NCBI GenBank assembly: GCA_017512045.1
Contig: JAFWHE010000004.1
Span: 1 to 55,341, forward strand
Direction of reading: 5' to 3'
DNA: 55,341 bases
Source: Candidatus Saccharimonadota bacterium
Lineage (GTDB): Bacteria > Patescibacteriota > Saccharimonadia > Saccharimonadales > Saccharimonadaceae
Part shown: one piece after another, positions 24,360 through 27,230 of the stretch
Position numbering within the stretch: the stretch's first letter is position 1
Layout: the number at the start of each line of letters is the position of its first letter
Notes under the pieces: generated by a model
What the model was told of the DNA's origin: nothing
The model's input: only the letters and a program-made list of their open reading frames with translations
Database searches by the model: none
Translations under genes and position numbers: made by a program

Positions 24360-24391
24360 ATTCCTCCTAGTTCTATCTATTATATCACATT

Positions 24392-24531
24392 GAAAATCCC
24401 CTGAGTGTTCAGGGGATTTTCCAGATGCGTGTCCTTAATATAATATCATTTAAGTTTGGTCATATAAATAAACATTATAGAAAGGCTTATTATGCTACGC
24501 GCACCTGATCACAGTGTGACCGAAATTAGTT
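24392..24531 (-). repeat. Duplicated 140-bp 3' region, copy 1, ending in a terminator
   Basis: Matches 26138-26277 with one substitution. On the minus strand it begins at the stop codon of the secreted protein, contains a dyad GGTCACA-C-TGTGATC, an A/T-rich stretch, and ends in a perfect 13-bp hairpin (24392-24404 with 24409-24421). Such identity in untranslated DNA suggests recent duplication or gene conversion, possibly with a function in the transcript end. Confidence 0.85.
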
Positions 24532-25356
24532 TTCCAAGACAGGATTGGAGTAATCAGGGTCTGAAGTACTATCAAATGTAGTAGCAGTATATGTAATGTT
24601 TCCGTGGTATACACCTGTCTGCTGGTCAGCTGCGGTTGCAACACCATAGAACACTAATGTCTCTTGGCCGTGAGTTGCTGGAGTTGCAGATGGATCACCA
24701 GTCTTACTCTTCTTGCCAGCAATCACAACATCACTTCCGGTGATTGCAGAGTATCCAGCCCCATCAGCAGAAGCTGTACCGACTTTGTATCCCCATGCAG
24801 GTGTTCCAGCTACCAGTGTACCAGTTGATTCACCGCTCTCAATAGTAACTGGAGGGATTGTTACATTATTTGCATTAGTAAGGCCAAGAGCTGATGCACT
24901 GGTTGCCTTTACAGTTAATTTATATCCCAAATCATTATTTGTGTAGACATTAATAGTAGACATGAACCCTTCGCCAGTTGGCTTACCGCTTGCAGGAAGC
25001 GCACTATCATTACCGTTAACTACAGTGTTAGGGAGGATGCTAGTGTAGCTGGATGAATTCCATACGGTTGCCGTAGCTGGAATTTGATGGCCATCAAGCT
25101 CCTTGCCGGCAATGCCCGCTGGATTGAATACATCAACTTTACCGTTGCCAGTACCATAATATGGATTGGCAGTAGAAGCATTATTACTCTCATTGTTGCC
25201 TTCAATCGTCATTGCAATAGCAGGAAGAACCTCTGCATACAAATCAACTGCACCAGAAACGGTTTCACTAGCAAACGTCATTGCAGGTAAAGCAGCGACA
25301 CCGAGGCCAGCGACTACGCCAGCAGCGGCAATGATCTTTGTAGATTTTTTGGACAT
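24526..25356 (-). CDS. Secreted beta-rich surface protein, paralogue 1
   Basis: 276 aa, no recognised enzyme motif. The first 29 residues (signal peptide, cut after TFA) are identical to paralogue 2. The mature chain starts with SGAVDLYAEVLPAIAMTI, has a VDVFNPAG segment, an INVYTNNDLGYKL strand pair and ends QTGVYHGNITYTAT. The arrangement recalls WxL-type or fimbrial Ig-like modules, but that is only a resemblance. No membrane or sortase anchor is visible. An AAAGGA site precedes the ATG. Expression appears to be controlled by the poly-G promoter at 25416-25447. Confidence 0.82.
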   Translation of the reverse strand: MSKKSTKIIAAAGVVAGLGVAALPAMTFASETVSGAVDLYAEVLPAIAMTIEGNNESNNASTANPYYGTGNGKVDVFNPAGIAGKELDGHQIPATATVWNSSSYTSILPNTVVNGNDSALPASGKPTGEGFMSTINVYTNNDLGYKLTVKATSASALGLTNANNVTIPPVTIESGESTGTLVAGTPAWGYKVGTASADGAGYSAITGSDVVIAGKKSKTGDPSATPATHGQETLVFYGVATAADQQTGVYHGNITYTATTFDSTSDPDYSNPVLEN

Positions 25357-25604
25357 AATTTTTATTTCCTTTCACAAATTTTAATATTTTTATATTTATG
25401 ACCTTTGTAATTTCCATATTACCCCCCCCCCCGAACGGTTTTGTCAAGCATAATTTTTATGTTTTTTCCAAAAATGCAAATTTTTACCAAAAATTAGCAT
25501 TTTACAGAGGAAGCATTTGTGGAAAACTTTTTGCAACAAAATCCAAAATTGTTACATAGAACACACAAAGCCATGTTATTTACGGGTTTTGTTCGGGTTT
25601 TCAT
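25357..25604 (-). repeat. Duplicated 5' region, copy 1
   Basis: Nearly matches 26986-27230: leader, poly-G promoter and about 150 bp of A/T-rich upstream DNA. Together with the 3' repeat it shows that a whole gene unit was duplicated and only the coding part diverged strongly. Confidence 0.85.
25416..25447 (-). promoter_or_regulatory. Poly-G spacer promoter of paralogue 1 (11 G)
   Basis: On the minus strand: consensus -35 TTGACA (25442-25447), spacer of 20 nt containing 11 consecutive G (25422-25432), then TAATAT (25416-25421). Homopolymers of this length slip during replication. Here a change alters only the -35/-10 distance, so promoter strength would change in steps; about 8 G would give the preferred 17-bp spacer. 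Confidence 0.75.
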
Positions 25605-25671
25605 GAAGATATGTTACCAACAAAAAATCCCCTTCATAGATAATCCAGAACGGGATAAATACCACTTAATT

Positions 25672-25711
25672 GAGGGCTTGGCCTTTTGCTCTTCGACAAA
25701 AGGTCGCCCTC
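25672..25711. other. Structured element next to the CdiA-like gene
   Basis: Two nested stems, GAGGGC/GCCCTC outside and CCTTTTG/CAAAAGG inside, around an 8-nt loop. There is no T run on either strand, so it is not a standard terminator. It lies just 3' of the nuclease gene, where a terminator or small RNA could be. Confidence 0.5.
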
Positions 25712-25732
25712 ATTACTTACATTATAGCACAC

Positions 25733-26113
25733 TTACTTCTTAAGGTCAATCAGCCCTTGTTCCCTAGTAATCACTTTGAGAGCACGCACTCTCCTTGATG
25801 TCTTGAATAATTTCTTAATAGATGTTTCTGCCTGATTAGTTGGTATCTTAGTGCGTCTCAAATCCAAAATTATATTTTCCGATTGCTTGGCAGCACGTTT
25901 AAAAGCGTGCTCTACCGTAACGCGACTTCCACCTTGCGGACTTTTCATTTCCCAAGCCTTGCCATCCATTATGAAATCTGGAGATTTCACTTTTGGAGTA
26001 TTAGATGGCGGAATAAGTTCAATACTATGTCCTAAATTAGTAAAGAACACGATTGTATTGTTTTCGTGTTTTTCCAGACTAACACCATTCGGTATAATTT
26101 TTCCAACTTTCAC
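25733..26113 (-). CDS. CdiA C-terminal-type tRNase / PD-(D/E)xK-like nuclease domain, stand-alone
   Basis: About 126 aa. The core PDFIMDGKAWEMKSPQGGSR carries the D...E-x-K pattern of CdiA-CT tRNA nuclease domains, followed by a helix AFKRAAKQSENIILDLRR. There is no secretion signal or delivery domain, and no immunity-like frame follows. Start: TATAAT (26120-26125) lies 6 nt before a GTG at 26113 and only 3 nt before an ATG at 26116. The leaderless spacing rule favours GTG. It sits between the two copies of the secreted-protein unit, in the same direction. Confidence 0.68.
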   Translation of the reverse strand: MKVGKIIPNGVSLEKHENNTIVFFTNLGHSIELIPPSNTPKVKSPDFIMDGKAWEMKSPQGGSRVTVEHAFKRAAKQSENIILDLRRTKIPTNQAETSIKKLFKTSRRVRALKVITREQGLIDLKK

Positions 26114-26137
26114 CATTTCATTATATCATGTCCCTGC

Positions 26138-26277
26138 GAAAATCCCCTGAGTGTTCAGGGGATTTTCCAGATGCGTGTCCTTAATATAATATCATTTAAG
26201 TTTGGTCATATAAATAAACATTATAGAAAGGTTTATTATGCTACGCGCACCTGATCACAGTGTGACCGAAATTAGTT
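26138..26277 (-). repeat. Duplicated 140-bp 3' region, copy 2
   Basis: Partner of 24392-24531 with a single C/T difference. It ends in the same 13-bp terminator hairpin (26138-26167), which separates paralogue 2 from the nuclease gene. Confidence 0.85.
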
Positions 26278-26985
26278 ATCCGTTGTAGCAGTATAGGTGA
26301 CAGTTGCCTTGTAAAGACCAGTTTCCTGACTTGAGGCAGCGGATACACCATAGTAAACAGTAGTTACATCACCGCCAGCCGTTGTAGGACCAGTACCATC
26401 TTTAATTTCAGCTGCAGCTACGGCATAGTTAGGCGTTTCGCCAGTAGCATCAGTCGTCACAGGTGTGTCGACTGCATATCCCCAACCAGCTGCTCCTGCT
26501 TTTACTATACCATTAGCAGCAATAGTAGCTGAAGAACCCTCTTTTACCATTGCAGCTAGTGCATCATTTGCACCTTCACCACTAATATTTAGAGTGAAAC
26601 CAGTGTCATTAGTGAAGACGGTGATGGTTGACTTAAAACCATTGCCATCTGAACCATGAGCAGAAGCATTTGGCAGAAGGTCAATCCAGCTAGAAGAGGC
26701 AACAGTAGTTGGTGTAGATGGAGTAGCATGCCCACCAATATTGCTTGAAGCAGCACCAGAAGGATTAAATACATCAACGGCTCCATATCCACCAGCAACA
26801 TGACCATTGTTATCGTTGTTACCAGTAATGGTCATAGCAATTGCAGGGTTAACCTGAGCATAGATATCTGCTTCGCCAGTAACCGACTGAGAATTGGCAG
26901 CAAATGTCATTGCAGGTAAAGCAGCGACACCGAGGCCAGCGACTACGCCAGCAGCGGCAATGATCTTTGTAGATTTTTTGGACAT
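26272..26985 (-). CDS. Secreted beta-rich surface protein, paralogue 2
   Basis: 237 aa; signal peptide identical to paralogue 1, then a diverged mature chain with the same landmarks: ADIYAQVNPAIAMTITGNN, GAVDVFNPSG, ITVFTNDTGFTLNISG and a C-terminal QETGLYKATVTYTATTDN. It lacks about 40 residues present in paralogue 1, mostly in loops and at the C-terminus. Controlled by the poly-G promoter at 27043-27073. Function unknown. Confidence 0.82.
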   Translation of the reverse strand: MSKKSTKIIAAAGVVAGLGVAALPAMTFAANSQSVTGEADIYAQVNPAIAMTITGNNDNNGHVAGGYGAVDVFNPSGAASSNIGGHATPSTPTTVASSSWIDLLPNASAHGSDGNGFKSTITVFTNDTGFTLNISGEGANDALAAMVKEGSSATIAANGIVKAGAAGWGYAVDTPVTTDATGETPNYAVAAAEIKDGTGPTTAGGDVTTVYYGVSAASSQETGLYKATVTYTATTDN

Positions 26986-27230
26986 AATATTTATTTCCTT
27001 TCGTTTTTTATGGTTTTTATATTTATGACCTTTGTAATTTCCATATTACCCCCCCCCCGAACGGTTTTGTCAAGCATAATTTTTATGTTTTTTCCAAAAA
27101 TGCAAATTTTCGCCAAAAATTAGCATTTTACAGAGGAAGCATTTGTGGAAAACTTTTTGCGACAAAATCCACAATTGTTATATAGGACACACAAAGCCAT
27201 GTTATTTACGGGTTTTGTTCGGGTTTTCAT
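26986..27230 (-). repeat. Duplicated 5' region, copy 2
   Basis: Partner of 25357-25604. The main differences are the length of the G run and a short changed stretch next to the start codon. Confidence 0.83.
27043..27073 (-). promoter_or_regulatory. Poly-G spacer promoter of paralogue 2 (10 G)
   Basis: Same promoter as at 25416-25447 but with 10 G (27049-27058), giving a 19-nt spacer between TTGACA (27068-27073) and TAATAT (27043-27048). Confidence 0.75.

Follow-up and report, generated by a model that had tools for sequence, protein, structure and literature searches.

Poly-G tracts of unequal length in the promoter spacers of two secreted-protein paralogues of a Saccharimonadaceae bacterium as candidate phase-variation switches

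In the fim promoters of Bordetella, the length of a poly-C tract controls a surface structure with the involvement of an activator, whereas no activator is evident in the Saccharibacteria poly-G promoters considered here. The spacer between the -35 and -10 hexamers of a bacterial promoter usually measures 17 ± 1 nt. In Neisseria, the promoter spacers of porA, fetA and opc contain homopolymers (PMC2791445), and at the opc tract a change from C11 to C12 raised expression, while loss of mutS raised switching (PMC3447861). The present promoters are like those of Neisseria meningitidis porA, opc and fetA in that an uninterrupted run of G or C occupies part of the spacer of the core promoter, that the genes behind it code for exported proteins, and that the length of the run would be expected to set the contact with the sigma factor and hence the expression level (PMC2791445; PMC3447861), with slippage and its effect on expression predicted here from sequence. 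They differ from the Neisseria promoters in their phylum, in the lack of mismatch repair as judged by domain search, in the use of the G strand only, in a -10 hexamer that directly adjoins the run, and in the many unrelated gene families that are involved per genus. Within the Candidate Phyla Radiation (CPR), variation driven by a repeat has been described for a hypervariable repeat gene of a Gracilibacterium; its repeat is, however, a coding 9-mer and not a promoter homopolymer, and the text of that paper mentions neither promoters nor homopolymers (PMC6851277). No report of phase variation in Saccharibacteria, or of such promoters in Saccharibacteria, Nanosynbacter, Patescibacteria or the CPR, was found in the open-access literature, preprints excluded. 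The mechanism itself, of the porA/opc kind, is known, and what appears to be new is the lineage and the genus-level scale, a statement that is provisional because of the coverage of that search.

The analysed stretch of 55,341 nt, referred to below as the window, contains two promoters of this type, each in front of a gene for a secreted protein. The features are as follows:

25442..25447, minus strand: -35 hexamer TTGACA of the promoter of the gene at 24526-25356 (sequence, pattern match)
25441-25433, minus strand: AAACCGTTC, non-G part of the spacer, copy 1 (sequence)
25422..25432, minus strand: G11 tract in the 20-nt spacer at 25422-25441 (sequence, genome-wide run search)
25416..25421, minus strand: -10 hexamer TAATAT adjoining the G11 tract (sequence; register backed by the conserved distance to the leader motif)
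25398..25406, minus strand: leader motif AAAGGTCAT, 9 nt past the -10, copy 1 (common to poly-G and non-poly-G family members)
27068..27073, minus strand: -35 hexamer TTGACA of the promoter of the gene at 26272-26985 (sequence)
27067-27059, minus strand: AAACCGTTC, non-G part of the spacer, copy 2 (sequence)
27049..27058, minus strand: G10 tract in the 19-nt spacer at 27049-27067 (sequence, genome-wide run search)
27043..27048, minus strand: -10 hexamer TAATAT adjoining the G10 tract (sequence; conserved distance to the leader motif)
27025..27033, minus strand: leader motif AAAGGTCAT, copy 2 (sequence)
24526..25356, minus strand: P0001, secreted protein of 276 aa with signal peptide and predicted beta-sandwich (sequence, structure model)
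26272..26985, minus strand: P0002, secreted paralogue of 237 aa, 50% identical to P0001 (sequence)
25423..25604, minus strand: duplicated promoter region, copy 1, 97% identical to 27049-27230 (repeat comparison)
27049..27230, minus strand: duplicated promoter region, copy 2 (repeat comparison)
24371..24535, minus strand: duplicated 3' flank, copy 1, 93% identical to 26117-26281 (repeat comparison)
26117..26281, minus strand: duplicated 3' flank, copy 2 (repeat comparison)

The preliminary description of this DNA had reported TTGACA ... TAATAT promoters with 11 G in a 20-nt spacer and 10 G in a 19-nt spacer, and on re-reading both the counts and the coordinates proved right. It had also called the two promoters near-identical and one G apart, which agrees with the G11 and G10 tracts and with the 97% identity of the upstream 182 nt. 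Both spacers are longer than the usual length given above. The duplication is that of a cassette, which includes a signal-peptide region of 104 nt with 98% identity and a downstream part of 165 nt with 93% identity. That both paralogues are secreted had been claimed as well; N-terminal signal peptides can be read from the sequences of P0001 and P0002, and export is predicted on this basis. P0001 belongs to no Pfam or NCBIfam family, and the closest named relatives of the protein are found in Candidatus Saccharibacteria MAGs from sheep duodenum, an affiliation with which the size of the genome and its lack of MutS and MutL agree. That the gene family or the promoter came from a virus was ruled out, as IMG/VR contained neither a relative of the family nor the exact promoter. 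The AlphaFold model of P0001 (pLDDT 73, pTM 0.70) gave CfaB as best Foldseek match (E 1.5e-3, prob 0.98), and VIA-align gave a best Z of 7.0, with the Csu pilin at Z 6.9 and an rmsd of 2.9 over 125, which is below the trusted range. The model resembles beta-sandwich pilins (CfaB, Csu), at a level below that required for claiming homology.

Between the two paralogues lies an ORF of 127 aa (25733-26116, minus strand) with a CdiA_C domain (PF18451, E 2.6e-15), for which no large carrier protein is visible and whose distant matches are minor head proteins of Streptococcus phages. The repeated flanks of the paralogues could recombine and thereby delete this ORF. Just past it, a candidate small RNA of ~95 nt (25622-25749, minus strand) would start from a TTGACC-17-TATAAT site (25749-25721) and would contain a long hairpin (25712-25671) and a second hairpin followed by TTTTTT (25656-25622), with a fold z-score of -3.1. 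A known RNA element in the region was ruled out, since the sole match of the Rfam search was a tRNA, and the candidate small RNA has no Rfam family.

Apart from the two promoter tracts, the window contains no run of six or more G or C, and in the whole genome of 733 kb on 30 contigs the same two tracts are the only runs of G9 or longer. Under a first-order Markov model, the window would be expected to contain ~0.025 runs of at least 10, and the 733 kb of the genome 0.33. Because of this uniqueness in the genome, and because the expectation is far below two runs, the placement of both tracts is more than chance. Recurrence was determined with the pattern TTGAC-N5-16-G7-N0-8-TANNNT in 174 species of the genus, represented by one genome per species. 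The pattern yielded 77 distinct runs in 50 of the 174 species, as opposed to 2 matches for a reversed-pattern control and 5 runs for the same motif with C7 in place of G7. If no -35 was required, G9 followed directly by TANNNT occurred at 105 places, compared with 13 in the control. The window promoters are one instance of this genus-wide set, which constitutes a genus-level trait. In the wider order and phylum the design is sporadic, with a modest phylum-wide excess over the control. It seems to have arisen repeatedly, since some genomes clearly have multiple copies, for example four related promoters with G9, G11, G9 and G9 in G080, and TTGACACGCGCRTGA followed by G8, G9 or G10 and then TATACT in G524. 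The leader motif AAAGGTYAT, about 9 nt past the -10, accompanies promoters with and without poly-G in several gene families; it is present in 26 of 90 poly-G leaders, at L063 and at many other loci.

These counts also bear on the possibility that poly-G reads gave rise to the runs through errors of sequencing or assembly. Such an origin is clear for a few runs elsewhere (L242, where a contig starts with G45 plus G31), but the tracts discussed here are placed precisely between -35 and -10, both window copies lie deep inside a 55-kb contig, and the same architecture occurs in 50 independently assembled species with a reversed-pattern control near zero. An artefact is largely refuted, and we give it hardly any credence. 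Chance or artefact was ruled out by the genome-wide counts together with the reversed-pattern and poly-C controls.

The flanking DNA of ~120 places was taken, and 77 distinct promoters with a good -35 were scored. Their spacers range from 12 to 22 nt with a flat distribution over 15-19, their G runs from 7 to 17, and in 70 of the 77 the -10 directly adjoins the run. The total spacers straddle the functional optimum of ~17, at which poly-G-free TTGACW/TANNAT pairs from the same loci show a sharp peak. Over the 77 promoters, the length of the non-G part and that of the G run compensate each other, the variance of their sum being 5.4 compared with 9.7 after permutation (P = 0.0002). This compensation points to selection on total spacing, and nothing else that was considered predicts it.

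The P0001 family, which is present in multiple copies in the genus, allows a comparison in which the conserved leader AAAGGTCAT serves to set the -10 register. Poly-G-free promoters of the family (n=16) have spacers of 16-18 nt, 12 of the 16 exactly 17, whereas the poly-G promoters (n=6) have spacers of 18, 19, 20, 20, 20 and 21 nt (P = 2e-4). In a third paralogue, located elsewhere in the same genome, the spacer lacks poly-G and has a normal length of 18 nt. As the poly-G-free members keep the -35, the -10 and the leader with a spacer of 16-18, the G tract appears to have taken the place of the spacer in this family, while the other elements stayed. The tracts observed in the family are mostly a few bases too long, and the window copies are 2-3 G above the optimum. 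Since their spacers measure 20 and 19 nt as opposed to 16-18 in the poly-G-free siblings, both window genes are predicted to be weakly transcribed or off as assembled, rather than intermediate, and a loss of 2-4 G should return them to spacers of 16-18.

A different account would be that the run is a fixed regulatory element, either a protein site or a G-rich strand structure, whose length drifts without any switch. It would agree with the strand bias, as pure spacing control would permit either base: on the coding strand the promoter homopolymers are nearly all G (77 G against 5 C runs), for which spacing alone gives no account. The base before the run, nearly always C or T in the set of 77 promoters, fits it too. 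However, the spacers share no sequence except G and the runs of the scored set vary from 7 to 17, longer runs go with shorter non-G parts, as expected from spacing, and the family members that lack a run retain -35, -10 and leader around a spacer of 16-18, so that we consider a fixed element improbable. It is less probable still that the poly-G promoters are relics and the genes are read from upstream promoters. The promoter-like site TTGACC-17-TATAAT, with an extended -10 (25749-25721) and 274 nt upstream of the first poly-G -35, could serve in this way, but a hairpin followed by TTTTTT lies between it and the gene, and the second copy has no such upstream site. Moreover, the distance from -10 to leader equals that of the poly-G-free siblings, and -35 and -10 are near consensus in 50 species, which does not suit a relic.

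The reading of the tracts as variable spacers is further addressed by run lengths. Near-identical promoters with different runs were found not only in the window (11 and 10), but also in G028 (15 and 10), G131 (14 and 10), G123 (17 and 16), G130 (10, 10, 10 and 9) and between L130 and L210 (9 and 11), and the promoters of the P0001 family in related species have runs of 11, 11, 12 and 9. Differences of one base may be errors of the consensus, differences of four and five bases hardly. The difference of 11 and 10 in the window is weak when taken alone, because consensus lengths in MAGs may be off by one. Of the 105 tracts, 14 have a contig end no more than 100 nt away, compared with 1.0 expected, and at the named relative L065 the contig begins 4 nt past the expected -10 position. 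Such breaks may stem from variable tract length, from the repeated flanks or from the two together.

Neither a MutS_V nor a MutL domain was found by domain search in the source genome or in 19 relatives (11 of 14 control genomes were positive), in line with a report that Saccharibacteria show no evidence of MutS or MutL (PMC8406219). Slippage would therefore go uncorrected. The proposed mechanism is that the polymerase gains or loses G while copying the tract, with no recognisable MutS or MutL to repair the change, and that the separation of -35 and -10 would thereby come closer to 17 nt or depart further from it. The gene of the secreted protein would then be transcribed more strongly or more weakly, in a heritable and reversible manner and separately for each copy. 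Tract slippage in a -35/-10 spacer had been put forward from the outset as a phase switch, and the comparison lends it support through variable runs within a constrained total spacer, the poly-G-free siblings at 16-18, the occurrence in 50 species and the lack of mismatch-repair genes. The two G tracts are very probably slippage-prone spacers of housekeeping-sigma promoters that tune the transcription of each copy. Independent tuning, with the "four or more surface states" that had been proposed, could follow from such spacers. Slippage within the population, its effect on transcription and a role in attachment or evasion are what we infer from this evidence.

A scan of 77 proteins encoded behind poly-G promoters for domains gave Listeria-Bacteroides repeats (9), Fibrobacter major domains (9), HNH_repeat (4), TM2 (3) and Lcl_C (3), besides LRR, SpaA, T4SS pilin, papain-like protease and others. 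The downstream genes code mostly for secreted or membrane proteins, and many of the products have a signal peptide together with a membrane segment at the C-terminus. A crude test of N-terminal hydrophobicity was positive for 52 of 83 poly-G-driven ORFs and for 19 of 43 window ORFs (P = 0.06), a background that itself includes membrane proteins, and by this measure an enrichment for exported proteins is no more than suggestive. The poly-G-driven proteins at L196, L180, L176, L140, L151, L137 and L147 have no signal peptide; their common N-terminus is acidic and contains a motif like GW[DE]S[VL]..EVPF.G, beyond which their sequences differ completely; this N-terminus is possibly a targeting or export signal. 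In addition, G9-G10 runs lie in the apparent first codons of signal-peptide ORFs of the same genus (L016, i.e. G004:C8:7078, as well as L018, L019, L023 and L024), and translational switching by frameshift may coexist with the promoter type.

Since poly-G promoters stand in front of many unrelated proteins across the genus, exported, membrane and cytosolic ones, they would form a general device for randomising the display of presumed epibionts. On balance we favour the view that a large share of the genus has a phasome, in which many unrelated secreted, membrane-anchored and effector-like genes under poly-G promoters, in cells that have lost MutS and MutL, would continuously give rise to combinatorial display states within one clonal population, and that other Patescibacteria acquired this design repeatedly. 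Most Saccharibacteria are uncultured, and they live attached to other bacteria; the finding bears on the question of how they cope with changing hosts on very small genomes. It would connect a regulatory strategy with the loss of mismatch repair, and would indicate an evolution of homopolymer-spacer promoters beyond the pathogens in which they are well studied. The catalogue of poly-G promoters names the genes that each species would vary, and these are the likeliest candidates for proteins of attachment and interaction.
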